DNA of 64,000 bases from Verrucomicrobiota bacterium (GTDB lineage Bacteria; Verrucomicrobiota; Verrucomicrobiia; Opitutales; Opitutaceae), in NCBI GenBank assembly GCA_030605125.1, contig JAUWBD010000001.1, positions 62,001 to 126,000 on the forward strand, read 5' to 3'. The position numbers and the translations under genes are program-made. Position 1 is the stretch's first letter, and each line of letters opens with the position of its first letter. Shown piece after piece: positions 17,549-58,369 of this stretch. The notes beneath the pieces were generated by a model, which was not told the origin of the DNA, ran no database searches, and saw only the letters and a list, made by a program, of their open reading frames with translations.

Positions 17549-20500
17549 GTGACCCTGCCCGACCTCCACGCCGCCCTCGCCTCCGGCCACCTCGAGATCG
17601 CCCGCCGCATCGGCCGCGCCCTCGTCGCCGACCCCGCGACCCACAGCGCCGACACCGTCCTTGGCCTCCACGACGCCCTCGCCGCGCTCACCGACTTCCG
17701 CGAGGCCTCCGCCCTTCTCGACACCCACGCCTCGCTTCTCCGGGCCCGCCCCTTCGACGTCGTCCTCCGCCTCGCCGAGAACGCCCAAACCCTCGCCGCC
17801 GAGACCCACTACCGGATCTCCGACGAGGCCGCCGCCGGCCTCACCATCGACGAATACCTCGTCAAATACCGCGCCCTCGCCGACCACCGCTTCGCCGAGG
17901 CGATCCGCCTCGCCGACACCCCCGCTCTGGTCGCGCAACTCCAGGCCGCCGCCACCCGCTGCAAACGCAAGCTCCCCGCCCTCCCCGACCCGCCCCCGGC
18001 CTCCGCCGAAGTCTCGCCCACCCCGGCCTCCGTATCCGCCGGATCCCTACACGGCCGCCTCGTTCTCCCCGACGGCTCTCCCGCGGCCCAAGTCGTCGTC
18101 ACCCTCGGCCTCGCACCCGAGATCGTCCACGCCGACCCCGCCACCTACCAATCCGACGAGCCCCACTACCGCCCGAAAATCGGCGAACTGCGCGCCCTCA
18201 AAACGACCAGCTCCGCCGACGGCTCCTTCGCCTTCGCCGACGTCCCCGCCGGCACCCACGACTTCCTCGCCGTCACGCTCGACCCTGAGCGCCACGCCAT
18301 CCCCACGCGCTTCGTCGCGCGCGGCTTGGTCGTCTCCTCCGATCGCGCCACCGATACCGGCCCGCTCACCGTCAACGAATGGCGCAGCGCCCCCGCCGCG
18401 CCCTACGCGAGCCCGCATCCCGACATGCTCTCCGCCGACGGCCACACTTGGCGCAAGCTCTCGGATACTCGCCTCCACAACCCGTTCTACTACGAGTTCC
18501 GCCGCCAGGCCCTGCGCCTCCCGCTCCCCGCCGGCCTCGATCCCACGACGCACGCGCTTCGCGTCGAGATCACGCCCGGCCGCGCCGAGCCCTTCCAGAT
18601 CATCGAGCGCGAAGTCCTCCTCTTCACCGGCCTCCCGCAACGCACCAATCTGTCCGTCGCCCTCTTCGCCGCCGACGCCGCGCAACTCCCGGCCCCCTCG
18701 CCCGCCGCCGGCGTCACCCTCACCGAGGAATCTGCCGCCGTGTGGCTCCTCGATACCGGCCGCGCCCGCTTCCGCCTCGCCGGCCCCGCCGCCGCGCTCG
18801 ACGCCGCGCCCATCCTCGCCGTCCAGGGCCCCGACCAACGCTGGCGCGGACAAGGTCGCCTCATCCTCCCCGTCGGCCTCACCGTTTCCTCGCGCGACAC
18901 CTCCGTCCTCACCCGCGGCCCGCTCTTCGTCGAGCTGCGCACCACGCTCCGCCTCTCCAACGGCGCCGACTACGTATTCACATTTTCCGCACACGCCGGC
19001 GAGCCCTTCCTCGGCGTCCGAGAAACCTCGCCCGACGTCCCCGGCGCCGCCTTCGAGTTTTCGCTCGCCGAGTTCTCCGGCGGCCGCGGCTTCCTCCACT
19101 GGACGCCCGAAAAGCCCTTCGGCTCCCGCCACTGGTGGAGCTTGGAGAAAAAAGACGCGCTCATCGCCCGTCTGCCCGAGCAGGTCCCGTGGTGGATTCC
19201 GCCGCAGGGCTTCGCCTATGCGCTCAGCCCCGACAGCATCCGAGAACGGGACTTCATCGGCGTCATGAGCCTGCGCCGCGGCGAATGGATCGACCGTGAG
19301 TTCAACCGTCTCGCCCAGGGCCCGATGGACGCCGACGGCTCCGAAAACCGCGAACTCGACTGGCCCTTCCCCGAGATGGTCGGCTCATCCATCTCCATGA
19401 TCACCGGCCACACCACGGCAGGCGGCGACGTGTTCTTCCGCTTCGGCTGCTTCGACGGTGAGCGCCAATGGGGCCTCTACGTCGGCGAGGTCGGGGCCAA
19501 CACCGGCCTCGAAAAAGAAATCGGCCTCGTCCAGCACGCCTACTCCTCGCCGCGCCTCCAGGAGTTCAAGGATTGGCACTTTGACGTGCCCGACGCCCAC
19601 GCCCGCCCGCACGTCGTCGCCTCGCGCGACTCCCTGCCGCACCTTCGCGCCAAGACCCGCCACCCGCTCCTCGGCAAAGTCTGGGAAAAAATCCGCGCCG
19701 GCATCGTCCCCGGTCCCGCCGGCGGGCTCACCTTCGCCGTCGAGGCCGACCCCGTCGTCGCCTGGCGCCGCCGCCTCGAGCTCGTGCGCATCGCCGAGAT
19801 CCAGGCGCGCAAGGTCCTGCTCGGTCGCGACCGTGGCGACGCCTACTCGCCCGTCATGGGCCGCCCGATCACGCCTTGGGCCGAGGAATACGACCTGCTC
19901 GCCGCCTCCGGCGTGTTTGACGCCGAGGAGGAGCGCACCCTGCGCGCCTACTTCATCCTGATGGGCCACATGTTCATGGAGCCTGACTTCATGAACTTCC
20001 AGTTCAACGCGCGTAACGCCAACTTCGAGGCCGACCGCACCGACATCGTCGGCGCCGTCGGCCTGGTATTCGACGGCCATCCCGACGCCGATAAGTTCCT
20101 CAACCACGTCATCGCGCTGACCAAAAAATCGCTGCTCGTTTACTGCACGCCCGGCAGCGGCAAGTGGTATGAAAACCCCGCCTGCTACTACCTCCAGGCG
20201 TCGAAGTGCCGGATGAACCTCGTCTATCACCTGGTGCGCCACGGTCGCATCCGGCTCGACGAGATTCCGCGCCTCAAAGACTTCCTCCGCTGGGGCATCG
20301 TGCTGCTTCAGCCCCCCACGCCCGTCGCCTACGCCGTCATGCGCGACGGCGGCGGCGCGGAGGTCTTCGACCGCGTGGAGAAAATCCGCCGCGTCCCGCC
20401 CATCGGCGACCACGCCTCCATCGGCCGCTGGATTCCCGAGCACTACGCCACCATCGGCAAACTCTTCCAGGACCTCGACCCCGCCTTCGCCCGCGAACTC

Positions 20501-21799
20501 ACCGACGCCTACTACGCGGCCAACGCCGACGGCTTTCGCCTCGCCACCCGCTACGCCGTCCCCGTCGAACAGATCGGCGAAAACGTGTTTCACGCCGCCA
20601 GCGGCGGGGCCAACTTCGGCAACCTCCCGCTCTTCTTCTCCGTCATCGATCCCGAGGACCTGCCCTCGGCCGTCCCGCCTCTCCCGCTCGTCAGCCGCCG
20701 CCTCGAAGGTTTCGGCGCCGTCTTCCGCCATCAGGTCAACACCAGCCGCGAGGGCTACGTCCTCCTCAAGCAGGGTCCCGGCGGTTACCGCTACCACCGC
20801 ACCGAAGGCAGCTTCATCTTCTTCGCCGACGGCCACCCGCTCGTCTATGACGGCGGCGAGGCCGGCGAGACCTGGCGCCACAGCACGCTCTCGTTCCACG
20901 ATGTCCACATGCCGCTGATGAGCGGCCGCGTCGAACGCTGCTTCGCCACTCCCGCCTTCCACTTCTCGCAAGGCGTGCACCCCGGCGCCGTCGCGCCCGG
21001 CAAGCCCGTCTATCTGAGCGACACCTGCGAGCACGAGCTCGTAGAGGAATCCTACCGCCGCTTCCGCCAGGAGCCTCCCGGCGTCGTCCGCTCGCTCGCC
21101 TGGCTCGGCGGACGCACGCTCATCGTCCACGACGCCATCGACCTGCCCGCCGAGATTCCCTCGCACTGGCACCTCCAGGTAGTCGGAGACGCCCCTTCCG
21201 GCGACGCCGCCTCCGGCTATCTCTTCCCCGGCCGCTTCGGCACCGACCTCCAGGTCCTTTTCCCCGGCCAACAGATCGCCAAGTCTTCCGTCGAATACCT
21301 CCCAATCCTCGAATACCACAGCGAGCCGCATCAATGGTTCGGCCAGCAACACCTGCAGGTCTCCACGCCGGGCGCGCGCGATTACCTCGCCGTCCTCCAC
21401 CCGGTCGGCGATTCCGGCCCCGTATCCGCCGAGGCGATACACCACGCCGGCCGCGTAGTCGGCGCGATCGTGCGCGGCGCGCATGGCGTGGACCGCGTCT
21501 GGTTCGGCCGCAAAAACGCCGTCGCCTCGTCCGACGCCGATCACGACTTCTCCGGCTCCGCCGCTTCGCTGCTCCTGCGCGCGGACGGCGAGACCACGCT
21601 CTCCCTCATCGGCCCCGGCCGTCTCTCCCACCGTGACCTCGCGCTGGAAAGCACCGGCCCCTCCGCCCTGCTCACCCGCCTGGCCGACGGCTCGTTCCAG
21701 CTCCTCGCCGACGGCACGGGCGAGGTCCGCCTGTTCCGCTCCGGCCGCGAACAAGCCTTCACCGTCAACAGCCCCCTCCACCACCTCCTCTCCGCATGA
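17549..21799 (+). CDS. 1416-aa heparinase II/III-like polysaccharide lyase candidate with carboxypeptidase-regulatory-like domain
   Basis: GTG start; SLHGRLVLPDGSPAAQVVVTLG..SSADGSFAFADVPAGTHDFLAV; C-terminal SFIFFADGHPLVYDGGEAGETWRHSTLSFHDVHMPLMSGRVE...TLIVHDAIDLP resembles heparinase-type beta-sheet domain. No signal peptide seen. Confidence 0.55.
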   Translation: MTLPDLHAALASGHLEIARRIGRALVADPATHSADTVLGLHDALAALTDFREASALLDTHASLLRARPFDVVLRLAENAQTLAAETHYRISDEAAAGLTIDEYLVKYRALADHRFAEAIRLADTPALVAQLQAAATRCKRKLPALPDPPPASAEVSPTPASVSAGSLHGRLVLPDGSPAAQVVVTLGLAPEIVHADPATYQSDEPHYRPKIGELRALKTTSSADGSFAFADVPAGTHDFLAVTLDPERHAIPTRFVARGLVVSSDRATDTGPLTVNEWRSAPAAPYASPHPDMLSADGHTWRKLSDTRLHNPFYYEFRRQALRLPLPAGLDPTTHALRVEITPGRAEPFQIIEREVLLFTGLPQRTNLSVALFAADAAQLPAPSPAAGVTLTEESAAVWLLDTGRARFRLAGPAAALDAAPILAVQGPDQRWRGQGRLILPVGLTVSSRDTSVLTRGPLFVELRTTLRLSNGADYVFTFSAHAGEPFLGVRETSPDVPGAAFEFSLAEFSGGRGFLHWTPEKPFGSRHWWSLEKKDALIARLPEQVPWWIPPQGFAYALSPDSIRERDFIGVMSLRRGEWIDREFNRLAQGPMDADGSENRELDWPFPEMVGSSISMITGHTTAGGDVFFRFGCFDGERQWGLYVGEVGANTGLEKEIGLVQHAYSSPRLQEFKDWHFDVPDAHARPHVVASRDSLPHLRAKTRHPLLGKVWEKIRAGIVPGPAGGLTFAVEADPVVAWRRRLELVRIAEIQARKVLLGRDRGDAYSPVMGRPITPWAEEYDLLAASGVFDAEEERTLRAYFILMGHMFMEPDFMNFQFNARNANFEADRTDIVGAVGLVFDGHPDADKFLNHVIALTKKSLLVYCTPGSGKWYENPACYYLQASKCRMNLVYHLVRHGRIRLDEIPRLKDFLRWGIVLLQPPTPVAYAVMRDGGGAEVFDRVEKIRRVPPIGDHASIGRWIPEHYATIGKLFQDLDPAFARELTDAYYAANADGFRLATRYAVPVEQIGENVFHAASGGANFGNLPLFFSVIDPEDLPSAVPPLPLVSRRLEGFGAVFRHQVNTSREGYVLLKQGPGGYRYHRTEGSFIFFADGHPLVYDGGEAGETWRHSTLSFHDVHMPLMSGRVERCFATPAFHFSQGVHPGAVAPGKPVYLSDTCEHELVEESYRRFRQEPPGVVRSLAWLGGRTLIVHDAIDLPAEIPSHWHLQVVGDAPSGDAASGYLFPGRFGTDLQVLFPGQQIAKSSVEYLPILEYHSEPHQWFGQQHLQVSTPGARDYLAVLHPVGDSGPVSAEAIHHAGRVVGAIVRGAHGVDRVWFGRKNAVASSDADHDFSGSAASLLLRADGETTLSLIGPGRLSHRDLALESTGPSALLTRLADGSFQLLADGTGEVRLFRSGREQAFTVNSPLHHLLSA

Positions 21800-24712: not shown

Positions 24713-25846
<1,134 letters not shown>

Positions 25847-25889: not shown

Positions 25890-28049
25890 TCACTTCATCG
25901 AGGGCACGATGATGCCGCGCATGATAATCTTTTGGCAGAAGAGGAAGACGATGAGCGTCGGGATGGAGGCCACGACAAAGCCCGCCGTGGTGATCCAGGC
26001 GGAGTTCGACCACCAGATGCTGGCCTGGTAGAGCCAGACGGAGATCGTCCACATCTCGGGGTCCTGACAGATGATCAACGCCCAGGCCCAGCCGTCGTAG
26101 GCGGCCATGAAAGCGCCGAGCGCGTTGATCGCCAGGATGGGCGTCACCATCGGCATGGTGACGAAAAGGAAGATCTGCCACTCGCGCGCACCGTCGATCG
26201 TCGCCGCCTCGTAGAGCTCCTGCGGGAGCGAATCGAAGAAGCCTTTGAGAATAAAGATGCCCATGCCGCTCGCCGCCCCCGGCAGCACCAGGGCGAAGAA
26301 GGTGTTCAACATGCCGAGGTCGCGCATCAGCAGGTAGCCCGGAATGGCGCTGACCATCGCCGGAAAGGCGGAGGTCGCGAGGCAGAAGAGGATGATCTTG
26401 TCCTTGGCGCGCAGGCGAAACCGCGAGAGCGCGTAGCCCGCGATCGGGTTGACCGTGAGCGAGGCGAAGATGCTCAGGATGATGAGCCAGAGGGTGACGG
26501 GGATCGAGTTGCCCTGGTCCACCAGGAAACGGCCGATCGTGCTGTAGTTGAACCACGCGGGCGCGATGGCGAAGGAGCCGCGATGTTCGCGGTAGGTGAC
26601 GGCGTAGGCCTTGTCCAAGGGCATGCGCGCCTCCTCCCAGTGGGCTAGGTTCCAGCCGTAGGCGGCGTTGAGCGTATCCAGGTTTCCGTGACGCTCGCGA
26701 AGGAACGCCTGGTAGGCCGCGTCCGCCGAGCCGATGACGCGATCCTCCGCGCCCAGCGTGCGGACAAAGGCCGCCCACACCTCACGCACGCCGACGGAGC
26801 CGTCGGCCCGGGCCGGCGGGAGGGATTCGGCGAGCGGAAAGTCCGCCCATTCGCGATGCGAGGTGCCCAGTATCTGGTTAAGCGACGGCACGCGCTCGTA
26901 GGTGCGCTCAAGGAAAGCCTCGTAGCGGGCGCGCAGCTCGGGCGTGACGACGAGTCGGACGTGGCGGAGCGGATACTGGGTCTCGACGAAGCTGCGCCAG
27001 AGCTCGCGCAGGCCGTCGAAGCCCTCGGCGGGCAGCGGGAAAGGCGTCTGCTCGAGGCTCGCGTAGCCGGTGCCGGCGAGCCGGTTGTAGCGCCCGATGT
27101 CGAAGCGCTCGCCGGCGCCGAGCGCGAGGCGCTCGCGCGTGCGGTCGCCCGTGAGATAGTCGATCCATGCCCGCCGCAGGGAATAGGGCTGGGTGGGCGC
27201 GAGCGGAGCATGCTCGCGGGCAAACCGGCGCCACAGTTCCCGCTCCTCCACCGAGGCGTCAAAGGGTAGCGGCGAGAGGCGGGAGGCCTCCGCGGACGAA
27301 AGGCCCTCGGCGCGAAGAAACGAACGCCAGGCGGATTGCACGCCGGGCGTCGCCGCTCCGTGCAGGAGATGGTGGCGCAGCACCGTGTAGTCCTCCCACT
27401 TGGCGTTGCCGCGGGGAAACCACGACTGCTGCCACATCGGCGAGCGGCGCTCGCTGTCGAAGCGGATGGCGATGTAGTTCTCGATCGGCACGCCCCAGCG
27501 CGCGGAGAGCCGCTCCAGCGCCGCACGCTCCAGCGCCTTGCCGCGCAGCCTCGCTTCGGGATCGGCGCGGCGCGCCTGCTCCTCGTAGTGCCGCAACATC
27601 GTCTCCGCCGCGAATTCGTTGGTGAAGATCGCGCGGGTGTCGTCGAGCGAGTAGCCGAGCGTGAAGTCCGAGTAGTCGGCGGCCTGCGTGCGCCAGCGCG
27701 AGAACTCGGCCTCGTCGGCGTCGAGGTAGCGGCGCCCGACCTCGTCCACTCGTTCGGTGTCGAGGCCGATCGCGCGCCAGGTCGTCCAGCCCGCCGGACG
27801 CTCGGGCAGGATGTCCGCCGCGACGGAAAACATCGGCAGGCCTTTCATGAAGCGGTCCGAGGACGACCAGAGCGAGCGCGGCACGATCGAGAAGCGCTCG
27901 TAGTCGAAGCTGTTCGTGACCGACCCCGTGAGGGTGATCATGAACGGGATCGCCATGCTCGCCCCGAAGAAGACGAGATTGGCGTAGATCAACCAGACGA
28001 AGCTTCGCTGGGACCAGGTGCGTTTGCCGACGACGGAGAGGAGGGGCAT
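25890..28049 (-). CDS. MalG-type carbohydrate ABC permease with ~470-aa extracytoplasmic insertion after TM1
   Basis: TM1 [26 protein letters not shown] loop [27 protein letters not shown]; insertion residues ~44-515 between TM1 and TM2. Confidence 0.88.
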
Positions 28050-28058
28050 GGTAATCGA

Positions 28059-30749
28059 TCAGTCTTGGGCGCGGCGGAACTCGACCCGCTTGAGGATGCG
28101 CATCTGCACGAGGGTGAAGCCGATCAGGCAGGCGCCGACGATCCAGGCCATCGAGGTCGCCATGCTGAAGCGCAGGTTGTTGTAGGCCTCGATCCAGATC
28201 TTCATGCTCACGACCATCGTCGTCTCGCCCGGACCGCCGAAGGTGAGCAGGAAGATGTTCCCCATGTTCTGGAACGTCGCGATGAACGCGCCCAAAAAGT
28301 TGATGATGATGAGCGGCATCAACACCGGCAGGGTGATGTGGCGCAGCTTGGTGAAGATGCCGCCGCCATCGAGTTCGCAGGCCTCGTAGGTGTCCTCGGG
28401 CACGCTCTTGAGCGCCGCAAGGTAGATGAGGCAGCCCATGCCGGCGCTCGCCCAGGCTCCGGGCAGGATCACGCAGAGCATCGCGAGCGCGGGATCTTCC
28501 AGCCAGCCCTGCGGCGAGACGTTCACGCCCGGCAGGTAGTTGAGGATCGCGATCATCTGGTTGAACAGACCGTTGGGCCGCGGGTCGAACATCAGCTTCC
28601 AGAGGAGCGCGATCACGAGGCCGCTCGTCACCTGCGGCAGGAAAAACAGCGTGCGGAAGAAGATCTTCCCGCGCGGCACCTCGGAGAGCATGATCGCCAG
28701 GATGATCGGCGTGGTAAACGACAGGAGCATCGTCAGCGCCACGTAGTAAACCGTGCGGCCCATGCTCGCCCAAAAACCGCGGTCGAGCGCCAGCGCGATG
28801 AAGTTGTCGAGCCCCACAAACACGCTCTCGCCCGCCACGCGGTAGTTTTGAAACGCCATCACCAGTCCGCGGAAGAGCGGGTAGTAGCCCCACAGGCCGA
28901 TGAGCAGCAGCGCCGGCAGGAGCAGCAGCCAGGGCAGAAAACGGTTGTCCACCATGCCGCTCGCCGCGGGCATGCCACGACGCTGGAAGAGCGAGCGGAT
29001 GATCATCACGAGCATGCCGGCCATGGCCGCGCACACGACCGCGAAGATCACCCTCGCCAGCGGGCGGTGCTCGTCGAGCTCGGCGCGGGGCCGGGCGAAC
29101 ATCACGCCGGAGTTGGCCTTGCGGTTGATCATCGAGAGCGCCGCCCCGTAGTCGAAGGGCTCGCCGCTCTGCGCCAGCACGAGGCTGAGCATCTCGCGAT
29201 TCAAAGAGCCGTCCATCGTCGCCCAAAATCCCTCGTAGGGCTCGGTGAAGCTGACGATCTCGCCGGAATCGATCCGCCGATACACATCCCGCAGCGAGCC
29301 CGGGATGCTCTCGATGTAGTCCTGATGCCCGAGGCGCTCGAGCATGCGCGGGTGCACGAAGCGGGCGAGGCCATACACGACCATCCGCTCCGCCACCGCC
29401 TCGCGCGCCACGCTGTCCGTCACGCCGGTGAGCACCTTCCACACCTTGTCGCGCTCGGCCTTGGGACGCTCGCCGACATTGACCGCCATGGTCGCGAAGT
29501 GCCGCTGCACCTGCACCACCGGACGATGCTCCTCGCTCGCCGCGGGAAAAGGGAACCAGCTCAGGAGATCGGGGTTAACGCCGGAGGTGTTGCCGGTGTT
29601 GAGCAAGTCGGTGACGAACCAGGTAATCATCGCCACCTCGCCGCGCCCGAGCAGTTGCAACGGATCGGTCTCGCGAGAGCCGAGGTGCGCGCGCGCCACG
29701 CCCTGATTTACCTGCGCGGGCGAAAACGTGATCCGACGCCCGTCCACCACCACCGCGCCGGCCGCGAGGGCCTCGGCGTCGAGCGGGATAGGTTCACCGG
29801 TCTCCGGATCCAAGATCCAACGCCCCCAGCGCAAACGATGGAAAAACGCGGTCGCGGCCAAGCCGGCGGGGGAATCGAAATCAGCGCGAAACTCGACCGG
29901 CGCCTGGGAAAGATCGGTGCCGTCCTCCAGCTTCAGCACCCGCGCGTCGGGCGGAAACACATGCTGCAAGCCGGTGCGCGGATCGGTGCGCACCTGCACG
30001 ATCGGTTCGCCGCCCGCCGCCTTCACCCAGGGCAGCCAAGTGAAGCCGTGGGGGAGCAAGGTCAGCGCGCGCTGGCCGGGATTGTGCAAGCGCCCCGCCA
30101 CCGGCGCGCCGGGATTGGTGAGGATCATGCACCAACGATAAAACTCCTCCCACGTGCGGGGCGGATTGTCGGGATCAAGCCCCGCGTTCCGAATCAGGTC
30201 GGTGCGTATGATGACGCCGAGCATCGACTCGCCGGCCTGAGGCAGGCCGTAGATTTTGCCGTCCTTGGTCGCGACCTGGCGCCAAAGCGCGGGCACCTCC
30301 GCCCACCCTTCCCAACGCGCCTCCTCCGGGCTCACCTGCCCGTCGCCGTCCGTGTCCTCGCCGATCCACTCGTTTAGCGGATGAAGAAACCCCTGCCCCA
30401 CGTCGTTTCGGATGACGTGAAACCATGAGTCCATGATGTCGGGCGAGGTCTGGCCCGCGATCGACATGATGAGCGTGGACCGTCCGCCTCCGCCCGGCAG
30501 CGCCAGGCCGCTCCACATCTGGATGGAGAGATTCGGATCGTCCTTCATCATCTGCACCAGATGCGGAGTGGCCTCCGGCTGGTTGGGATCGTAGAAGCGC
30601 GACACCACCGAGACCTTCACCGGGCCGGGAGTCTCCTTCGCGGCCTGCGCCGGGGCACAGAGAAGCGCGACCAGTGCGAAAAGCGTCCACGCGGTGCGAA
30701 GAAAGGAAAAGCTGTGCGAACGGTGATCGGGTTCGGGCGGGGCGCTCAT
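28059..30749 (-). CDS. Fused extracellular solute-binding protein / MalF-type ABC permease
   Basis: Signal peptide FLRTAWTLFALVALLCAPAQA; SBP-1-like domain with YGLPQAGESMLGVIIRTDLIRNAGLDPDNPPRTWEEF; then TM segments and EAA loop YEACELDGGGIFTKLRHITLPVLMP. Start MSAPPEP chosen; upstream in-frame Ms exist up to 30995. Confidence 0.88.
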   Translation of the reverse strand: MSAPPEPDHRSHSFSFLRTAWTLFALVALLCAPAQAAKETPGPVKVSVVSRFYDPNQPEATPHLVQMMKDDPNLSIQMWSGLALPGGGGRSTLIMSIAGQTSPDIMDSWFHVIRNDVGQGFLHPLNEWIGEDTDGDGQVSPEEARWEGWAEVPALWRQVATKDGKIYGLPQAGESMLGVIIRTDLIRNAGLDPDNPPRTWEEFYRWCMILTNPGAPVAGRLHNPGQRALTLLPHGFTWLPWVKAAGGEPIVQVRTDPRTGLQHVFPPDARVLKLEDGTDLSQAPVEFRADFDSPAGLAATAFFHRLRWGRWILDPETGEPIPLDAEALAAGAVVVDGRRITFSPAQVNQGVARAHLGSRETDPLQLLGRGEVAMITWFVTDLLNTGNTSGVNPDLLSWFPFPAASEEHRPVVQVQRHFATMAVNVGERPKAERDKVWKVLTGVTDSVAREAVAERMVVYGLARFVHPRMLERLGHQDYIESIPGSLRDVYRRIDSGEIVSFTEPYEGFWATMDGSLNREMLSLVLAQSGEPFDYGAALSMINRKANSGVMFARPRAELDEHRPLARVIFAVVCAAMAGMLVMIIRSLFQRRGMPAASGMVDNRFLPWLLLLPALLLIGLWGYYPLFRGLVMAFQNYRVAGESVFVGLDNFIALALDRGFWASMGRTVYYVALTMLLSFTTPIILAIMLSEVPRGKIFFRTLFFLPQVTSGLVIALLWKLMFDPRPNGLFNQMIAILNYLPGVNVSPQGWLEDPALAMLCVILPGAWASAGMGCLIYLAALKSVPEDTYEACELDGGGIFTKLRHITLPVLMPLIIINFLGAFIATFQNMGNIFLLTFGGPGETTMVVSMKIWIEAYNNLRFSMATSMAWIVGACLIGFTLVQMRILKRVEFRRAQD

Positions 30750-30893
30750 CGGGGTCGCCGACCAGAGCATCGGGCCACTACCCGACGCGACCGGAACACA
30801 TAACATACTCATGAACTTTGGAGCGGGGCGGGAGTTCGCCACAGCGCAGTGTCCGAACGCTGATTCTTGGCCAAAAAAAGCTCCTCGGCGATA

Positions 30894-31034
30894 GGTGTGT
30901 CCGGGAAATAAACCCGTGGAGCGCCAGAGGAGAGACTCGCTCGGCCAAGGCGACCGAGGCGGAGGTGGACCAGCGGTCCATGCCGTCGAGGGCAACGCCG
31001 GCCCGGCATGACGGGTTTATTTACCAGACACACC
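30894..31034. repeat. 141-bp inverted-repeat element with internal hairpins (MITE-like or structured RNA)
   Basis: Left GGTGTGTCCGGGAAATAAACCCGT pairs with right ACGGGTTTATTTACCAGACACACC (22/24); internal hairpins TGGACC-agc-GGTCCA, CTCGG/CCGAG, TGCC..GGGC/GCCC..GGCA. Confidence 0.75.
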
Positions 31035-31081: not shown

Positions 31082-32467
31082 TCAGGTGTAGTGCAACTGC
31101 GCCGTCGCCACGCAATCGGCCGACGCCACCACCCGCACCCAGTGCGCGCTGAACCCGTCGGAAAACACGTGCGGCGCGTAGCCTTTGGCCGGCACCTCGA
31201 CTCGTTGATACGCGCTCCATTCCCCGCAGCCGAGGAAGTCCACCTCGATGGTGAACGTCACCGGCTGTTCGGCCTCGTGCGTGAGATGAATGACCTTCTT
31301 GTCAAAACCGGTCATGAGATACGGATCGGAAGGCTCGCCGGCCTTGACCGCGTCTTTCCACCATGGGCCGCCCCACCCCTTCGGCTTGCCGAGGTTCCAG
31401 AGGTCGTCGGTGCGGCCGAACCACAGGCCCGAGCTCGGCTCGGCGGCCTGCAGGTTGCCGCCGCCTTCGTGCGAGGTGTTGTCGGCGCCGATGACGAGCA
31501 TGCCGTTCCAGTTGCAAAAATCGCCATGCACCCAGAGGTGCGTCGAAATCGGGCGGATGCCCCAGACGCGTCCGCCGAACGCCCACGGCGAGAGTTCGTA
31601 GAACATGCCGTGATGGTCCATCAGCAGGCGCTCGTGCTCGATCGAGCGGATGCGCGGCCACTCGGTCTGCCACTTGTGGTCCCAGCAATTCGACGCCTTG
31701 GGCAGGCGATAGGTCGTCCATTTTTTGTCGGCGTCGGTGTAAACCTTGAGGATCGCCGAGGCGCGGTCCCAGCCGTTGGCGAAGATCGTCTTACCGAAAT
31801 AGTTCAGTCCGTTCACGCCAACGAAGGGCTTGTTCTCGATCGAGGCCCACTTCGCGCCGTCATACTCGGCCAGGTTGCCCTCGGCGGTTTTGCCGAGGAA
31901 GTCGGACTCGGAGTAATCGTTGTTCACCACGACCAGACGCCCGTGCGCCTGGTAGCAATCCTTGAAGTGGCAGCTCCCCTCGCCCGGCGTGCCGAGCTCT
32001 TTTTGCAGGTCGAAGAGGTGCTTTGTCTCCAACGTGTGGACGTTGAGCTCGAACAGCTCGCCTTCCATGCCGAGCATATAGACGAGGTTTCGGGGATCGG
32101 TCAGGTGACGCGCCGTGCCGCACAGGCGGATGTCCACGAGCTCCGCGACGGTGCGCACGTTGTGCTTTGTATCCACCAAGTGGGGACCGATGATGAGCTG
32201 GCTCGACTCATCGTGCACAAAGCGGTTGGCATAGGTGCCGTCCACGCCCGCCGGATGGCGCGTCATGGAAAAATCCGGCTCGATCACGCGCAGGCCCGTG
32301 CCCGTGCCGGTGTGGCGGCGGTGCGAGTTGTAGTTGAGCACGTAGAGCTTGCCGAGCCAGGGCATCAGGCAGCCCACGCCGATCTCGCTGCGCGGCGGGC
32401 CGAAGTCGGCGACCTGGGCGAGCGACGGAACGACACCGGAGAAATTCAGGGGAAGGTTTGGATTCAT
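31082..32467 (-). CDS. Conserved-looking hypothetical protein, possibly beta-propeller-like
   Basis: Intact 461-aa ORF in an operon-like position; repeated blade-like segments (GKLYVLNYNSHRRHTGTGTGLRVIEPDFS, GRLVVVNNDYSESDFLGKTAEGNLAEYDGAKW); no signal peptide. Confidence 0.6.
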   Translation of the reverse strand: MNPNLPLNFSGVVPSLAQVADFGPPRSEIGVGCLMPWLGKLYVLNYNSHRRHTGTGTGLRVIEPDFSMTRHPAGVDGTYANRFVHDESSQLIIGPHLVDTKHNVRTVAELVDIRLCGTARHLTDPRNLVYMLGMEGELFELNVHTLETKHLFDLQKELGTPGEGSCHFKDCYQAHGRLVVVNNDYSESDFLGKTAEGNLAEYDGAKWASIENKPFVGVNGLNYFGKTIFANGWDRASAILKVYTDADKKWTTYRLPKASNCWDHKWQTEWPRIRSIEHERLLMDHHGMFYELSPWAFGGRVWGIRPISTHLWVHGDFCNWNGMLVIGADNTSHEGGGNLQAAEPSSGLWFGRTDDLWNLGKPKGWGGPWWKDAVKAGEPSDPYLMTGFDKKVIHLTHEAEQPVTFTIEVDFLGCGEWSAYQRVEVPAKGYAPHVFSDGFSAHWVRVVASADCVATAQLHYT

Positions 32468-49818: not shown

Positions 49819-50859
49819 CGCGGCCCGGCGCTCGCTCCGTCCTTTGCCGACTCGGTCCGCTTCGTGAAGCAGTAGGATCGCGGCCGCGATCCGGCGTGTC
49901 AGGCCCCGGCGCGACCGAAGGTCTTTTTCCCTTCCTCTTCTCAAACGCCCGGGGCGCTCGCGCGCCTCCTGCGTTTGAAAAGCGCGGGGAGACGCGCCCT
50001 CATGCCGCTTAAACCAAGCCGAGAAATGAGAGAGCTGGCGAAAGCCCAGTTCGTAGGCGACCTGCTTGACCGACTGCTTGCCCGCCTTGAGCGCCCGACG
50101 CGCGCGCTCCATCCGTCCGCGCTCCCAATACTGATGAAGCGTGAAACCGTAGATTTGGGCGCAGACACGATTCAGTCGTCCCGTGCTCAAGCCGCTCGCT
50201 CGCGTCACCGCCTCCTCCGGATATCCGCCTCCGGGCGTCTGGGAATCGATCACCTGCAGGGCGCGCGCCACCCGGGGGTCTGTCGATTCCGGGATTCTCA
50301 TTTTCAGGCCCGCTTCCATCAAGGCCTCGACCAGCGCACCCTGCCAGGCCTGCCAATGCCGCTGATACTCCAGAAAACGCGGATAGCTCATCTGGTTTCG
50401 CCAATGAAAAACGGTGCGCATGTCGCGCTCGTAGTCGTCGTTCCATCTCAGCTTTTCCGTCAGCGCCAGAAGTCGGCGCGCATGGCGCTCGAGGCTCGGA
50501 TGCTCCCGCGCATCGATCACCACGAGCGCCTTTCCCTCAAACAAGGGCGATCCATCCGGCCAACTCTGCGACACGCGTAGCGCCAACAGGCGCGTGTCCG
50601 GCGCGAAGCGCTGCGTCACCCGCGAGCCGAAGCACACCAGCCACTGCCCCTTCCCCGCGCGCGCCGTCTCCCCGTCCGAGGCGATCTGCGCCCGGCCCTC
50701 GCGCACCAGCCACGCGCTGAACTCGCGCTCCCGCTCGCCGCTGCGATCCGCCTTCCCCGCCGGGATCACGCTGTCGTGAATGAAGAGCAGCTCGGTGCGC
50801 ACGCTCTCCCAGTCGTGCAGGCTGCTCGTATCCCCGGAAGCGAAGTCGGTCTCACGCAT
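49687..50859 (-). CDS. AraC-family transcriptional regulator with ~94-aa C-terminal extension
   Basis: HTH SVKQVAYELGFRQLSHFSAWFKRHEGASPRAF; N-terminal cupin-like sensing region; start MRETDFASG at 50859. Confidence 0.85.
   Translation of the reverse strand: MRETDFASGDTSSLHDWESVRTELLFIHDSVIPAGKADRSGEREREFSAWLVREGRAQIASDGETARAGKGQWLVCFGSRVTQRFAPDTRLLALRVSQSWPDGSPLFEGKALVVIDAREHPSLERHARRLLALTEKLRWNDDYERDMRTVFHWRNQMSYPRFLEYQRHWQAWQGALVEALMEAGLKMRIPESTDPRVARALQVIDSQTPGGGYPEEAVTRASGLSTGRLNRVCAQIYGFTLHQYWERGRMERARRALKAGKQSVKQVAYELGFRQLSHFSAWFKRHEGASPRAFQTQEARERPGRLRRGREKDLRSRRGLTRRIAAAILLLHEADRVGKGRSERRAASASEARLGAQGPAGGGEFLFEREREFPAAFDIGKDCIQPIDTG
49872..49892. repeat. REP-like hairpin 2
   Basis: GTA + GGATCGCGGCCGCGATCC, an 18-bp perfect palindrome. 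Confidence 0.5.
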
Positions 50860-50864
50860 CGGCT

Positions 50865-50899
50865 GCAAATAGATAACTTTTGGCGTAAGCCGACAACTC
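50865..50899 (+). promoter_or_regulatory. AraC-type candidate operator, site S3
   Basis: GCAAATAGATAACTTTTGGCGTAAGCCGACAACTC, between the AraC-type gene (start 50859) and the beta-helix gene (51025). Confidence 0.55.
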
Positions 50900-51024
50900 C
50901 ATTCGATTGCCCGTCCCGCGCGCGGGTTCGAATCTCGCGCCAATCCCCGCCCCCCGTCCGACCGCCTCGTCATCCATGGCGAACCACGCGGAACGACGAC
51001 TTCCACCCCAAACCACCGTCATTC

Positions 51025-53718
51025 ATGCCCCTCCGTGCCCCCTCGCTCCCGCGCGCCCTCGTCGTTGTCCTCGGCCTGCTCTCCTCCATCACCGCTGCAG
51101 CCTTCGGCCAACCCCCCTTGGTCTTCACCCACACCAAATCCGCCCTGCCCGGAGACATGATCGTCATCCACGGCGCGCGATTCATCCAGGGGACCGACAT
51201 GCCCGAGGTCTGGTTTGACACGATGACTGGCGATACCTCGCCGCCATCGCCCACCACGCAATCCACGGAGGTGGTCTCGCAGACCGCCACCCTGCTCCAC
51301 GTCCGCGTGCCCGAATCCCTTTCCCCCGGCCTCTATGCCGTCTTCGTGAAACGCGGCGCTTTCACCAGCGCGCCCCTCTGGATCAACCGCGCCGACGCCT
51401 GGCAGGTTCTCGACCTCGCCGGCACCGAAATCGACCCCGGCCGACCGTTTCGACTCTATGGCTGGAACCTCGAGCTCTCCGGAGCGGCCTCCCAGGTCTG
51501 GTTCGAAAACATCGATACCCTCGCCCGCACCGCCGCCACCGTCACCGCGCTCGATCGCGCCAACCTGCTGCAAGCCACCGCGCCCGCCACCTTGGTCCCC
51601 GGCCAGTCCTATCGCCTCATCGTGAGCAACGGTCACGGCGGAGCCTACGGAGAGACCGCCGGCCCCGTGCTCTCCTGCCTAGCCACCCCGGTTGATGCCC
51701 TCGGCCTCGGCGTGCCCTGGGCCGACGAATACGCCTTCGCCGCCGCCACCGTGATCAACGTCAAAGCCCCCCCGTTCAACGCCGTGGGCGACGGCATCGC
51801 CGACGACTCCGCCGCCATCCAGGCCGCCTGCGACGCCGCCACCGCCGCCGGAGGAGCACAGGTCTATTTCCCCGCCGGCACCTACAACCTGGGAAGCACC
51901 ATCGTCCGCCTCGGCGCCAGGATCGTCCTCCGCGGCGACGGCCCCGCCCACTCCACCATCCACGGCGAGATCAACCCCAAGAACTCAAACACCTCCTCCC
52001 ATCTCGGCATCGCCGATCTCCGGCTCACCGGCGGCCGCCTCCGCATGAACAGCAAACCCGGTCCCGTCTTCGCCGTCCGCTCCGAGTTCGACGTGCCCGG
52101 CGGCTCCGCCCTCGACGTCCAATCCTGCACCAGCAAGGCGCTCGTGCGCGATTGCAGCATCATCGCCCGCTCCATCTCGCAGAAAAACGTCTTCAACTGC
52201 AGCAACACCCGCAACCTCCTCTTCAAGGACAACTACATGCAGTGGTCCGACGGACGCATCTACGCCGTCGGCGGTCGGGATCTCCAGATCGATGGCTCCG
52301 TCTTCATGCGCACCTCCGTCACCACTCCGTCCAATGGTGTCGAATATGGCGGGTGGGCCCTCGACCGCGCCAGCAACGTCGCCGTGATCGACAACTCCTT
52401 CGGGAAAATCGGCTCCGGCCCGATCATCCAGTCCAACGACGGCGAGACCATCCTCAACCAATCCGTCCCCCGCCTCGGCTTCGGCGCCGTCGGCTCCGCC
52501 ACCGCCAACACCCTCACCGACGGCGCGCAGGCCTGGACCACCGACCAGCTCGTGAACGAGGACGCGCACGTCCTCATCGTCTCCGGCCCCGGCGAAGGCC
52601 AGTGGCGCCACATCGTCTCCCACACCTCCGACACGCTCACCCTCGACACCCCCTGGGATATCGTCCCCACCACCGCGTCCGGCTACGTCGTCACGCGCAA
52701 GGACGTCAACTGGCTCGTCGCCGGAAACCTCTTCGAAGACTGCCCCCGCCCCATCTGGCTCTATAGCTGCACCATGGCCGACGTCGCCATCGTGGACAAC
52801 CACTTCGTCAACTCCGGCGACATCTACCTGCGCTCCGACCAGCGCCAAAGCGACGGTCGCCACACCGTCTTCCACAACGTGCTGATCCAGGACAACGAGA
52901 TCGTGAACACCAACCACGTCTATCCCTCGCAGCTCGTTTTTCAGGCCACCGTGCCCGGCACCGGCTCCGAGGTCCGCCTCGGCAACGGCTTCTGGGACGT
53001 CGTCGTGCGCCACAACACCATCGACTCCCTCCGCCCCTCCCTCGGCGCCGGCAGCGGTTACGGCGTCGTCGGCGAAGGCTATTTCGCCGTCACCAACGGC
53101 AACGGATCCGGGCTCGACGGCCGCGAGGGCATCAAAGGACTCCTCTTCGACCGCAACGCCGCCTGGAACCTCGACCACGCCTACCACACCTCGACCGGCG
53201 TCTCGCGCACGACCATCCATCGCCCCGCCTTCGCCAACATCGGCTCGCCGCTCCACGACTTCGTCCGTCCCGGAGCCACCCAGGGCGCGCTCGACACCGT
53301 CGTCGTCGCCGGCTCCCATATCCTCGACAACACCGACCACTCCGGCCTCGCCGTCACCGGCCTCTGGACCGCATCGACCAGCAGTCCCGGCTACGTCGGC
53401 CCCGACTACCAGCACGACCGCAATGCCGACAAAGGCGCCAAAACCTTCCGCTACACCCCTGAACTTCCCCAAGCCGGCTCCTACGCCGTTTACGCCCGCT
53501 GGGCCGCACACCCCAACCGCGCATCCAACGCCCCCTACACCATCGTTCACGCCTCAGGCTCCGACACCGTCAGCGTAAACCAACGAATCAACGGCGGAGT
53601 CTGGCAGCTCCTTGGCGTTTATTCATTCGCGGCCGGCTCCGCCGGGCATGTCACCCTCGGCACCGCCTCCACCGACGGCTTCGTCATCGCCGACGCAGTC
53701 CGGTTCGTGGGCCAATAA
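51025..53718 (+). CDS. Secreted beta-helix protein (pectate-lyase-3-like) with IPT/TIG-like N-term and golvesin/CBM-like C-term
   Basis: Signal peptide MPLRAPSLPRALVVVLGLLSSITAAAFG; INVKAPPFNAVGDGIADDSAAIQAACDAATAAGGAQVYFPAGTYNLGSTI; C-term ELPQAGSYAVYARWAAHPNRASNAPYTIVHASG. Confidence 0.82.
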   Translation: MPLRAPSLPRALVVVLGLLSSITAAAFGQPPLVFTHTKSALPGDMIVIHGARFIQGTDMPEVWFDTMTGDTSPPSPTTQSTEVVSQTATLLHVRVPESLSPGLYAVFVKRGAFTSAPLWINRADAWQVLDLAGTEIDPGRPFRLYGWNLELSGAASQVWFENIDTLARTAATVTALDRANLLQATAPATLVPGQSYRLIVSNGHGGAYGETAGPVLSCLATPVDALGLGVPWADEYAFAAATVINVKAPPFNAVGDGIADDSAAIQAACDAATAAGGAQVYFPAGTYNLGSTIVRLGARIVLRGDGPAHSTIHGEINPKNSNTSSHLGIADLRLTGGRLRMNSKPGPVFAVRSEFDVPGGSALDVQSCTSKALVRDCSIIARSISQKNVFNCSNTRNLLFKDNYMQWSDGRIYAVGGRDLQIDGSVFMRTSVTTPSNGVEYGGWALDRASNVAVIDNSFGKIGSGPIIQSNDGETILNQSVPRLGFGAVGSATANTLTDGAQAWTTDQLVNEDAHVLIVSGPGEGQWRHIVSHTSDTLTLDTPWDIVPTTASGYVVTRKDVNWLVAGNLFEDCPRPIWLYSCTMADVAIVDNHFVNSGDIYLRSDQRQSDGRHTVFHNVLIQDNEIVNTNHVYPSQLVFQATVPGTGSEVRLGNGFWDVVVRHNTIDSLRPSLGAGSGYGVVGEGYFAVTNGNGSGLDGREGIKGLLFDRNAAWNLDHAYHTSTGVSRTTIHRPAFANIGSPLHDFVRPGATQGALDTVVVAGSHILDNTDHSGLAVTGLWTASTSSPGYVGPDYQHDRNADKGAKTFRYTPELPQAGSYAVYARWAAHPNRASNAPYTIVHASGSDTVSVNQRINGGVWQLLGVYSFAAGSAGHVTLGTASTDGFVIADAVRFVGQ

Positions 53719-53747
53719 GCGCCGCCTATCAGCACCAGCCCCGTGGC

Positions 53748-53767
53748 GGGCGTCGCTCGCGGCGCCC
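53748..53767. repeat. REP-like hairpin 3
   Basis: GGGCGTCGC-TC-GCGGCGCCC inverted repeat (one G-T wobble). Confidence 0.45.
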
Positions 53768-53786
53768 GCACGATGCCTTGTTCGAC

Positions 53787-53821
53787 GCCAATAGATAAGT
53801 TTTAGCGTAAATCAGAAAGTT
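53787..53821 (+). promoter_or_regulatory. AraC-type candidate operator, site S4
   Basis: GCCAATAGATAAGTTTTAGCGTAAATCAGAAAGTT, 45 bp upstream of ATG 53866. Confidence 0.5.
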
Positions 53822-53865
53822 CTAAACATCGCCCCGCCGTCCTCGGCCGCGTCACTTTTGCCCCG

Positions 53866-54594
53866 ATGTCGCCCCGTTTCGCTATTACCCCTTTCCTCGC
53901 GCTCGCCTGCTTCGGCGTCCTGTTCGCGGCCGCTGCCTCCCTCCGCGCCGCGCCGGTGTATTCGCACACGTTCAACGGCGCGCCCGACGCCGGCCTTCAC
54001 GGCCTGCCGCTTGAGATCGGCGCCGGCGCCTGGATCGCCTCCGAAACCGCCAGGGCCGACGGCACCGACACCGCCCAATCGACCGCATGGATTCCCTACG
54101 CGTTCGACTCCGGCGTTTACACCGTCACCCTCACCCTCGATCTCTCGGCCCTGCCCGCCAACAACAACGGACTCATCGGCATCGGCTTCACCAACGCCTC
54201 CTCCCCGCGCACCGGCGACTTCGTCCACTCGACCAGCTCGGTTCACAGCGCGTTTGGCCTGCGTGGCACGAGCGACTGGGCGTTCTGGGGCGGCCGCGGC
54301 AAACTGCAACCGGTGGACGGAGGGGGGCCCACCTTCCCGCGTCAGAACACCCTGAAACTGGTTCTCGATACCACGAGACCCAACTGGATGGTCACCGCTT
54401 CGCTGCTCGACGAAAACGGCGCCGAGATACGGGTCGATCTCTCTCCCGACGATCCCACCTCCAACGCCTACACCTACGAGACGAATCCCGCGCCCTTCAC
54501 CGGCGTCGGCGTCCTCCTGCGCTCCAGCGCCGGCCGAGCCGTCCACTTCGCCTTCTCGGCCGAGCCCCGCCCGACCTCCGCGCCTCTCCGTTAA
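53866..54594 (+). CDS. Secreted hypothetical protein, LamG/concanavalin-like fold suspected
   Basis: Signal peptide; VYSHTFNGAPDAGLHGLPLEIGAGAWIASET..FDSGVYTVTLTLDLSALPANNNGLIGIGF. Confidence 0.6.
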   Translation: MSPRFAITPFLALACFGVLFAAAASLRAAPVYSHTFNGAPDAGLHGLPLEIGAGAWIASETARADGTDTAQSTAWIPYAFDSGVYTVTLTLDLSALPANNNGLIGIGFTNASSPRTGDFVHSTSSVHSAFGLRGTSDWAFWGGRGKLQPVDGGGPTFPRQNTLKLVLDTTRPNWMVTASLLDENGAEIRVDLSPDDPTSNAYTYETNPAPFTGVGVLLRSSAGRAVHFAFSAEPRPTSAPLR

Positions 54595-54633
54595 TCATTC
54601 CTCCCGACCCGACACCCCACACCACCCGCCTCG

Positions 54634-56136
54634 ATGAAATCCACCGCCCTCCACACGCTTCGCCTCGCCGCCCTGCTCGGCTCCATCCCCGCCCTCCACG
54701 CCGCCAGCGGCACCTGGAACACCACCGCCTCCGGCAACTGGAGCGACTCCACCAAATGGATCGACAACATCGTCGCCGACGGCTCCGGCTTCATCGCGAC
54801 GTTCCAGGCCCCCACGCCCAACACCAGCTCCCCCGTCGTCACCATCACCCTCGACAGCGACCGCACCATCGGCGGCCTCTTCTTCAACGGCCCCAACGCC
54901 GGCGGCGTCGGCACCCACAACTTCACGCTCTCCGGCCCCGGCGTGCTCACCCTCGCCGGCTCCACCACGCCCACCGTGACCGGCGGCCTCACCTCACGCA
55001 CCGCCACGGTTTCGGTATCCCTGGCCGGCACCCAAGGCGTAACTTTCGAGAACTCGGGCACCGTCTCCAACACGACCCTCATCATCGCCGGCAACAACAC
55101 CTACACCGGTGAAACCACCATCGCGGGCAACAACCGCATCGTGACCATCGCCCACAACAACGCGCTGGGCTCCACCAACGGTGGCACCACCGTGTCATCG
55201 AACTCCGCGCTGCTCCTTGCCAACGGCATCACCGTCACCGGTGAAACGCTCAACCTGAGCAGCTCCGGGGCGAGCAGCGAAGGCGCGCTCCGGGTCGCCA
55301 CCGGCGGCTCCGCCGAGTGGGCCGGCGCGATCAACATCACCGGCAACTCGCGTATCACCGCGGGCTCCACCGGCAGCACGATCGGCACCGGCGGCAACCT
55401 CAAGGTCAGCGGCGTCATCGCCGGCTCGGGCAACCTTCAGGTTTCCGGTCTGGGCACGCTGACCTTGAGCGGAGCCAACACCTACACCGGCACCACTCAG
55501 GTCTTCCGCGGCACCCTCAAACTCGACGCGGGCAACAACCGCCTGCCCACCGCCACCGCCCTCACCATCGGCGGCAGCTCCGAGAGCGCCACGCTCGATC
55601 TCAACGGTTACCACCAGCAGGTCGCCCGGCTCGTCAGCGGCTCCGGCTCCGGCGCCCGTATCCTCACCAACACCGGCTCCGCCGCCTCGACCTTCACCGT
55701 CAACCAGACCTCCGGCACCGACACCTTCGACGGCGTCATCGCCGGCAACATTAACTTCGTCAAATCCGGCGCAGGCACCCTCAACCTCACCGGCACCGCC
55801 AACACCTTCACCGGAAACATCACGATCAACGCCGGCACCCTCGGCATCGCCTCCGCCTTCATCAACAACACCGCCGATGTTTCCATCGCCAATGGCGCGG
55901 TCTTTGCCCTCAACTTCGTCGGCACCGACACCATCTCCGGCCTCTGGCTCGCCGGTGTCGCCCAGCAACTCGGCACCTACGGCGCCATCGGCAGCGGCGC
56001 CCAGTTCCAAAGCGCCTTCTTCTCCGGCACCGGCCTCCTCGAGGTCACCTCCGTCATCCCCGAGCCCTCCTCCGCCGCCGCGGCGGCCGGCCTCGCCGCC
56101 CTCGGGCTCGTCGGCCTTCGCCGCCGTCGTCGCTAA
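54634..56136 (+). CDS. Autotransporter-associated beta-strand repeat protein with PEP-CTERM
   Basis: GTWNTTASGNWSDSTKWIDN; NTYTGTTQVFRGTLKLDAGN; VIPEPSSAAAAAGLAALGLVGLRRRRR. Confidence 0.88.
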   Translation: MKSTALHTLRLAALLGSIPALHAASGTWNTTASGNWSDSTKWIDNIVADGSGFIATFQAPTPNTSSPVVTITLDSDRTIGGLFFNGPNAGGVGTHNFTLSGPGVLTLAGSTTPTVTGGLTSRTATVSVSLAGTQGVTFENSGTVSNTTLIIAGNNTYTGETTIAGNNRIVTIAHNNALGSTNGGTTVSSNSALLLANGITVTGETLNLSSSGASSEGALRVATGGSAEWAGAINITGNSRITAGSTGSTIGTGGNLKVSGVIAGSGNLQVSGLGTLTLSGANTYTGTTQVFRGTLKLDAGNNRLPTATALTIGGSSESATLDLNGYHQQVARLVSGSGSGARILTNTGSAASTFTVNQTSGTDTFDGVIAGNINFVKSGAGTLNLTGTANTFTGNITINAGTLGIASAFINNTADVSIANGAVFALNFVGTDTISGLWLAGVAQQLGTYGAIGSGAQFQSAFFSGTGLLEVTSVIPEPSSAAAAAGLAALGLVGLRRRRR

Positions 56137-56172
56137 ACCGACAAACCGCTCCGTATCCTTTGTGTCCCCGTG

Positions 56173-56203
56173 GCCGCCGGCATTCGCCGGCGGCTATTTT
56201 TTG
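56173..56203 (+). terminator. Rho-independent terminator
   Basis: GCCGCCGGC-ATTC-GCCGGCGGC then TATTTTTTG. Confidence 0.85.
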
Positions 56204-56216
56204 CCCACACCCTGCC

Positions 56217-57266
56217 ATGCCCGACCTCGCCGTTCGCTTCGCTCAAAACCCCATCATTCGCCCCGCCGACGTGGTCCCCAGCCGCGATGGCATGGAGGTC
56301 GCCTGCGTGCTCAATCCCGGCGCCTTCCGCTTTCAGGGCCGCACCGGCCTCCTCCTTCGTATCGCCGAGCGCCCCGTGCAGGAGGCAGGCTGGATCTCCA
56401 CGCCCGTCCTCGATCCCGCCAAACCCGGCGGCATCGACATCGTCCGCTTCCCCGAGTCCGAGTGCAAATGGATCGAGGACGCCCGCATCTTTTCCCACCA
56501 GGGCCGCGGCTACCTCACCACGCTCTCGCACCTCCGGCTCGCCTGGTCCGACGACGGCGTGAAGTTCGGCATCGAAACCAAACCCACGATCATGGGTGAA
56601 GGTCCGCTCGAAGCCTTCGGCATTGAAGACTGCCGCGTCACCCAGATCGGCGACACCTATCATCTCCACTTCACCGTCGTCTCCGACGCCGGTTTTGGTG
56701 TCGGCTACATCTCGACCACCGATTGGAAAACCTACCAACGTCACGGCGTCGTCATCCCGCCTCCGAACAAAGATTTCGCGCTCTTCCCGGAAAAAATCGG
56801 CGGCTACTACTACGCCCTCCACCGCCCCACCCACCACGCGCTCGGCGGTCCCTACATCTGGATCTCCCGCTCGCCCGACCTCCTCCACTGGGGCGATCAT
56901 CACTGCGTCGCCCGCCCACGCCCCGGCGCCTGGGACGCCCAAAAACTCGGCGGCGGCGCCGAGCCCATCAAAACCGAAAAAGGCTGGCTCGAAATCTACC
57001 ACGGCGTCGCCAAGGACTCCCAATACTGCCTCGGCCTTCTCCTCTTCGACCTCCACGATCCCCGCAAGCTGCTCGCACGCTCCGAGCTCCCGATCATGAA
57101 ACCGATCGAGCCCTACGAACTCACCGGCTTCTTCGGCAACGTCGTCTTCACCAACGGCCACGTCGTCGATGGCGACACCATCACGCTCTACTATGGCGCC
57201 TCCGACGAGGTCATCTGCGGCGCCACCCTCTCCATCAAGCAACTCCTCGCCTCGCTCGAAGCCTGA
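56217..57266 (+). CDS. GH130-like phosphorylase/glycosidase, paralog 2
   Basis: Near-identical over long stretches to the product of 42676..43728, e.g. YIWISRSPDLLHWGDHHCVARPRPGAWD, GGGAEPIKTEKGWLEIYHGVA.DSQYCLGLLLFDLHDPRKLLARSELPIMKP. Confidence 0.88.
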   Translation: MPDLAVRFAQNPIIRPADVVPSRDGMEVACVLNPGAFRFQGRTGLLLRIAERPVQEAGWISTPVLDPAKPGGIDIVRFPESECKWIEDARIFSHQGRGYLTTLSHLRLAWSDDGVKFGIETKPTIMGEGPLEAFGIEDCRVTQIGDTYHLHFTVVSDAGFGVGYISTTDWKTYQRHGVVIPPPNKDFALFPEKIGGYYYALHRPTHHALGGPYIWISRSPDLLHWGDHHCVARPRPGAWDAQKLGGGAEPIKTEKGWLEIYHGVAKDSQYCLGLLLFDLHDPRKLLARSELPIMKPIEPYELTGFFGNVVFTNGHVVDGDTITLYYGASDEVICGATLSIKQLLASLEA

Positions 57267-57338
57267 ATCGCAGATTCGCCGCGTCTCGAAGCCACTCGCG
57301 CGCGGCGGACCTGAATCGAACGCTCCCGCCCCGCTCTC

Positions 57339-58361: not shown

Positions 58362-58369
58362 GGCCGCCG

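Follow-up and report, generated by a model that had tools for sequence, protein, structure and literature searches.

MalFGK2 is the textbook model of how a binding protein hands its sugar over to an importer. In the DNA analyzed here (64,000 nucleotides of an Opitutaceae genome, hereafter referred to as the window), the usual layout of this system is swapped: the binding protein (SBP) resides inside MalF, and a large extracytoplasmic domain is carried by MalG. What is the role of this domain, and how widely is it found?

The MalG-type permease and its operon

The permease gene (positions 25890..28049, minus strand) encodes a protein of 719 amino acids (aa). A BPD_transp_1 domain (PF00528) was recognized above the cut-off at residues 537-709 (E 2.8e-12), and the EAA...GA motif of the EAA loop of the BPD_transp_1 core is present at residue 614. 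The nearest relatives of solved structure are AlgM2 and MalG. A fold search with the model of the full permease found MalG, SugB and AlgM2, the membrane domain being the only part matched. Against the MalG equivalog model NF008231 the protein scores 81 bits (cut-off 261), and it was classified from its sequence as MalG-like, without equivalog status for MalG, the maltose permease proper.

Hydropathy places the first transmembrane segment (TM1) at residues 16-44 (27918..28004, minus strand; helix 12-42 in the AlphaFold2 model), behind a basic cytoplasmic N-terminus, while the next TM segment begins at residue 513. The intervening insert in the P1 loop, of approximately 468 aa (residues 45-512; 26514..27917, minus strand), is essentially the one placed at residues ~44-515 by a preliminary description of this locus, which had reported an extracytoplasmic insertion of ~470 aa. 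The MalG membrane core, from TM2 to the C-terminus and including the EAA loop (25893..26513, minus strand), was delimited by PF00528, hydropathy and the fold search. Three TM segments separate the insert from the EAA loop, so the two lie on opposite sides of the membrane; since the EAA loop is cytoplasmic and the N-terminus basic, the insert is extracytoplasmic. The same description had stated that this loop is normally short, which is consistent with the total length of the ordinary MalG proteins found by the same search in Opitutaceae genomes (about 255-334 aa). Open frames of ~340-670 aa among the Opitutaceae MalG matches were considered as graded inserts and rejected, since most of them result from reading through overlapping frames; the actual proteins fall within the range just given.

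Directly upstream of malG, at a distance of 9 nt, lies a gene for an SBP fused to a MalF-type permease (ORF of 978 aa; 28059..30995, minus strand), with SBP_bac_1 at residues 167-300 and BPD_transp_1 at residues 764-974. The TTG start of this ORF is probably located upstream of the true start. An extra TM helix predicted by hydropathy (residues 644-672; 28980..29066, minus strand) links the SBP to the MalF core. At the position of the P2 loop of the E. coli protein the fused MalF has, by hydropathy, a loop of only about 32 aa (residues 716-747), i.e. P2 is absent. A MalK-type ATPase with ABC_tran, OB_MalK and TOBE_2 domains is encoded in the same operon directly downstream of malG (24713..25846, minus strand), so that a MalF-type permease, an SBP (fused) and MalK adjoin the MalG-type gene, as expected of a CUT1 importer.

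The surroundings of the operon (window positions 16274-37257 and 50776-60472) are those of polysaccharide utilization. They include genes encoding a GDSL esterase, an alpha-L-fucosidase, an FAD oxidoreductase, LacI and IclR regulators, two sulfatases, a pectate-lyase-like protein with Golvesin_C, and GH52. No Pfam family over the cut-off was found in two proteins encoded beside the operon, of 1416 aa (17549-21799, plus strand) and 461 aa (31082-32467, minus strand).

Repeat units and predicted fold of the insert

The presence of at least three related units within the insert, noted in the preliminary description, was confirmed by profile-profile alignment (hhalign) of slices taken from a 55-member family alignment. 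Unit 1 (residues 262-337; 27039..27266), unit 2 (residues 342-411; 26817..27026) and unit 3 (residues 417-480; 26610..26801), all on the minus strand, are significantly alike (E 3.4e-17 for unit 3 versus 2, 2.3e-11 for unit 2 versus 1 and 1.3e-9 for unit 3 versus 1). Unit 3 also matched a degenerate unit at residues 118-189 (27483..27698, minus strand; E 9.2e-10, probability 96.5%), while two further slices of the insert gave no convincing repeat match in the same comparison. The insert is composed of tandem repeats, three of them unambiguous and at least one more degenerate.

In a leave-one-unit-out analysis, the HMM of unit 3 outscored the maximum of 550 shuffles on the rest of the insert in all 55 members, and the counts for the leave-one-unit-out HMMs were 55, 53 and 51 of 55. 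A pooled unit HMM recognized at least two units, and up to five, in 125 of the 143 family ORFs scanned, a set that includes duplicates and truncated ORFs. A laxer control with shuffled inserts (sequence E < 1, Z = 137) produced 77 matches in 1100, which is more than ideal, and lone weak units are for this reason not to be trusted.

AlphaFold2 modelled the whole permease with a pLDDT of 87.9 (mostly 90-98 within the insert), and residues 46-512 alone with a pLDDT of 94.8 and a pTM of 0.93. The insert is thus predicted to be ordered, in addition to being extracytoplasmic, rather than disordered or cytoplasmic. The model is all-helical with four three-residue strands. Each of the clear units consists of a helix, a three-residue strand and two helices (strands at residues 286-288, 364-366 and 437-439 in units 1-3, respectively), and the degenerate unit has the same order of elements (strand 138-140). 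A Foldseek search of the PDB with the insert alone gave no match at E <= 0.001. W, F, P and Y make up most of the near-invariant positions of the insert; the only acidic ones are D49, D125 and D/E443.

A helical hairpin shared with glycoside hydrolases

A likeness to a motif of GH42-type beta-galactosidases had been pointed out in the preliminary description, and glycan handling by the insert was proposed on this basis. The likeness holds at the level of the family. The window permease alone matches PF02449 with E 0.048, below the cut-off and not significant; in the first alignment, all seven members matched this profile at E <= 1 (best 6.3e-6), and 13 of the 55 inserts did so at E < 0.01 (best 5.9e-13). 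The matching segment is a helical hairpin in unit 3 (residues 441-478; 26616..26729, minus strand), corresponding to positions 149-191 of the PF02449 profile and following the pattern F(L)xxxYGsldalNxaYG..P. With the family profile, the same hairpin was matched in GH14 as well as GH42 structures, 3voc and 7vkw among the matches (best 2e-4), and the weak top Foldseek matches of the insert, mostly GH50, GH42-like and GH14 hydrolases, agree with it. Judged from these profile matches, the hairpin is a real relation to GH42-type hydrolases at the family level.

The likeness is, however, confined to this single hairpin of ~36 residues, also present in GH14 and other TIM-barrel hydrolases, and the insert matches only about 40 of the 376 positions of the GH42 profile. 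In contrast to the GH42 and GH14 enzymes, the insert has the hairpin in tandem: its all-helical AlphaFold2 model contains no TIM barrel, and no catalytic Glu pair was found among its near-invariant residues. For want of a barrel and an acid pair, the reading of the insert as an enzyme was rejected. With no PDB fold match at E <= 0.001 either, glycan handling is not supported by the analogy with a GH42 catalytic domain. The hairpin would be a structural element that has been reused, not an active site. Single copies of it also occur in large non-permease proteins, presumably glycoside hydrolases (L106-L110, L114 and L115).

Distribution and phylogeny

Seven insert-bearing copies were identified in 6 of 201 Opitutaceae genomes. 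Screening of 388 Verrucomicrobiota genomes with the insert HMM gave 143 genomes with a match at E <= 1e-5, and 121 when the threshold was set to E <= 1e-7. Hydrolases bearing only the hairpin account for a few of the weaker matches, and the share of sampled genomes with the insert is about a quarter to a third. In a wider genome collection, a single-protein query gave no matches, whereas an alignment query did find the family in Lentisphaerota, Kiritimatiellota, Verrucomicrobia and Armatimonadota (including Zipacnadia). The cultured Oligosphaera ethanolica carries the insert. Across the family the insert is about 180 to 545 aa long.

In a FastTree phylogeny of the membrane region, all insert-bearing members group together, apart from four ordinary MalG proteins. 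The group of the window copy is nested among copies from Lentisphaerota and Armatimonadota, and two other Opitutaceae lineages are placed elsewhere, which suggests that the insert-bearing malG of the window group was acquired horizontally. The inserts of gut Kiritimatiellae are short (roughly 210-290 aa, with only about one clear hairpin kept) and are nested inside long-insert forms in the same tree; this position suggests that they were shortened secondarily.

A second pair of insert-bearing MalG and SBP-MalF genes (L038, G000:C191:22000-32000, and L206) is present on the same contig of the same genome; about 62 kb lie between it and the copy in the window, and its MalG is 69% identical. ORFs near it were judged by eye to be GH4-like, GDSL-like and FAD oxidoreductase-like. 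Another Opitutaceae MalG, of 588 aa (L047:3660-5426), has the same loop occupied by a different insert, beta-rich by eye and possibly an independent insertion; its gene adjoins an 851-aa ORF that was matched by the MalG-core search.

Pairing of the insert with the SBP-MalF fusion

The importer had been described as remodelled, and this view is upheld across the family, where the insert-bearing MalG goes with the SBP-MalF fusion. The fusion gene usually adjoins malG where enough upstream sequence is present. In a Kiritimatiellae-type clade it is located away from malG. All ten genomes chosen via family MalGs nevertheless encode the fusion, nine of them without a fusion gene beside malG. To count co-occurrence in the 388 Verrucomicrobiota genomes, the insert was identified by its HMM at E <= 1e-7 and the fusion by a junction-spanning SBP-MalF fragment. 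Both were found in 111 genomes, the insert only in 10, the fusion only in 18 and neither in 249 (Fisher p about 9e-65, a statistic that is inflated since it ignores phylogeny). Some of the single-sided genomes may represent incomplete assemblies or matches just below the threshold.

The two partners also diverge together. Over 34 gene pairs, distances between inserts and between partner SBPs are correlated (rank r 0.92), and the partial r remains 0.56 given both TM domains (Mantel p 0.0005), compared with 0.01 for the MalG membrane part versus the SBP. The co-divergence is carried mostly by the repeat half of the insert. The control comparison of the MalG and MalF membrane domains given the outer domains has a similarly high partial r (0.53), so the insert-SBP signal is only moderate evidence, part of which may reflect rate class rather than contact. 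The length of MalG is not correlated with that of its partner (rho -0.26, p 0.14).

Several arrangements were observed at individual loci. Insert-bearing malG genes stand alone, distant from the SBP-MalF gene, at L132, L134, L143, L172 and similar loci; at L143 an unannotated ORF of 1083 aa without a Pfam match lies directly upstream of malG. The fusions L043:80-3643 and L044:345-3845 (1187 and 1166 aa, respectively) run about 250 aa ahead of the first hydrophobic segment, representing either a real extension or a start called upstream. SBP-MalF matches in G822:C145, G826:C63 and G830:C1 contain 1-3 in-frame stops within the matched range, attributable to decay, assembly error or alignment beyond the start codon.

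Possible function of the insert

We consider it about an even chance (probability about 0.5) that the insert serves the tethered SBP of a MalFGK2-like (CUT1-type) sugar importer as a built-in docking platform. The repeat domain would stand above the translocation pathway and cradle the fused SBP, holding it in register with the pore and relaying its loaded state, a role that in E. coli belongs to MalF-P2 plus MalG-P1. In fold, the TM1-TM2 loop of MalG is equivalent to the TM3-TM4 loop of MalF. Contacts of both MalF P2 and MalG P1 with MalE have been reported for E. coli (Daus 2007, as cited in PMC3150292). Docking is suggested by the location of the insert in precisely this P1 loop, by the loop of only about 32 aa at the P2 position of the fused MalF, and by the co-occurrence of insert and fusion even when unlinked, together with the co-divergence of insert and SBP. 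Moreover, the mostly aromatic and proline near-invariant residues, devoid of an enzyme signature, favour docking rather than catalysis. Besides the similar correlation between the membrane domains and the effect of phylogeny on the co-occurrence statistic, two points count against it. In the genomes checked, gut Kiritimatiellae with short inserts still pair with the SBP-MalF fusion, so the full repeat array is unnecessary for pairing, and a fused SBP might need less help with docking, not more.

An unlikely alternative is that the insert binds glycans directly, as a module that captures carbohydrate or guides chains, passing long oligosaccharides to the SBP; this comes close to the proposal of the preliminary description. 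The hairpin is common to carbohydrate-active enzymes of several families, the locus encodes a fucosidase, two sulfatases, GDSL esterases and GH52, and conserved Trp and Phe recur at repeat positions. These aromatics, however, occupy the same place in every unit and look like core positions, the hairpin lies outside the catalytic centre of the enzymes that share it, and no carbohydrate-binding-module family was matched among the inserts. The pairing and co-divergence with the SBP favour docking over this reading. It is hardly credible that the permease has taken up a glycoside hydrolase domain, degenerate or cryptic: the GH42 and GH14 profile matches at the hairpin are reproducible, but the small part of the GH42 profile covered, the barrel-less helical model, the missing acid pair and the lack of a PDB fold match at E <= 0.001 have already largely refuted it.

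The size, repeat make-up and length range of the insert would also suit a spacer, and the helical domain could be an envelope scaffold tying the importer to peptidoglycan, an outer-membrane porin or a neighbouring enzyme. We regard this as quite improbable, as the divergence of the insert follows that of the partner SBP more closely than that of the membrane domain it is joined to, and no peptidoglycan-binding or outer-membrane family was matched. If the loop had expanded neutrally in particular lineages and had no role of its own, this would account for the variable unit number and for the shortening in gut Kiritimatiellae; such an origin is very unlikely for a domain that at least two phyla have kept and that has near-invariant positions, a high-confidence fold and a co-occurring partner.

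Relation to known systems

A hydrophilic TM1-TM2 region of ~500 aa, with function unknown and reported in no other MalG, was described in MalG1 and MalG2 of Thermotogales (Noll et al. 2008, BMC Evol Biol 8:7, PMC2246101), where malE is a gene of its own and MalF, with its eight TM helices, has a large periplasmic loop. Compared by description only, that insert resembles the present one in size and location. The partners differ: Thermotogales have a separate malE and a P2-like loop, whereas here the SBP is fused to a MalF with the short loop. The E. coli MalFGK2-MalE system shares the subunit plan and a similar MalG core, but has a free SBP, MalF P2 and a short MalG P1 in place of a tethered SBP and a big extracytoplasmic domain on MalG. 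In GlnPQ and OpuA the SBP is likewise covalently tethered to a membrane subunit; these belong to other transporter families (for amino acids and glycine betaine), and their abstracts (PMC8025302, PMC11065425) mention no repeat domain. A literature search for the insert/fusion architecture outside Thermotogales found none, which is not proof of absence. With the present family, the occurrence of large TM1-TM2 insertions in MalG reaches phyla beyond the Thermotogales, in combination with partners that are arranged differently.

More tentatively, these systems could constitute a distinct two-gene importer class that is frequent among Verrucomicrobiota and also occurs in Armatimonadota, with the SBP residing in MalF and docked by MalG through a helical-repeat cradle. 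In this rather doubtful extension, the fold of the cradle would have no relative among solved structures, the cradle would not be related to the insert of Thermotogales, and its number of units would be tuned to the size of the SBP or substrate.

Among bacteria degrading complex polysaccharides, the pairing of insert and fusion is widespread. Oligosphaera ethanolica DSM 24202 is available as a cultured host, and the natural variation in repeat number offers a ready series for probing the role of the domain. The finding also bears on the Thermotogales insert, which has been unexplained since the report of 2008.
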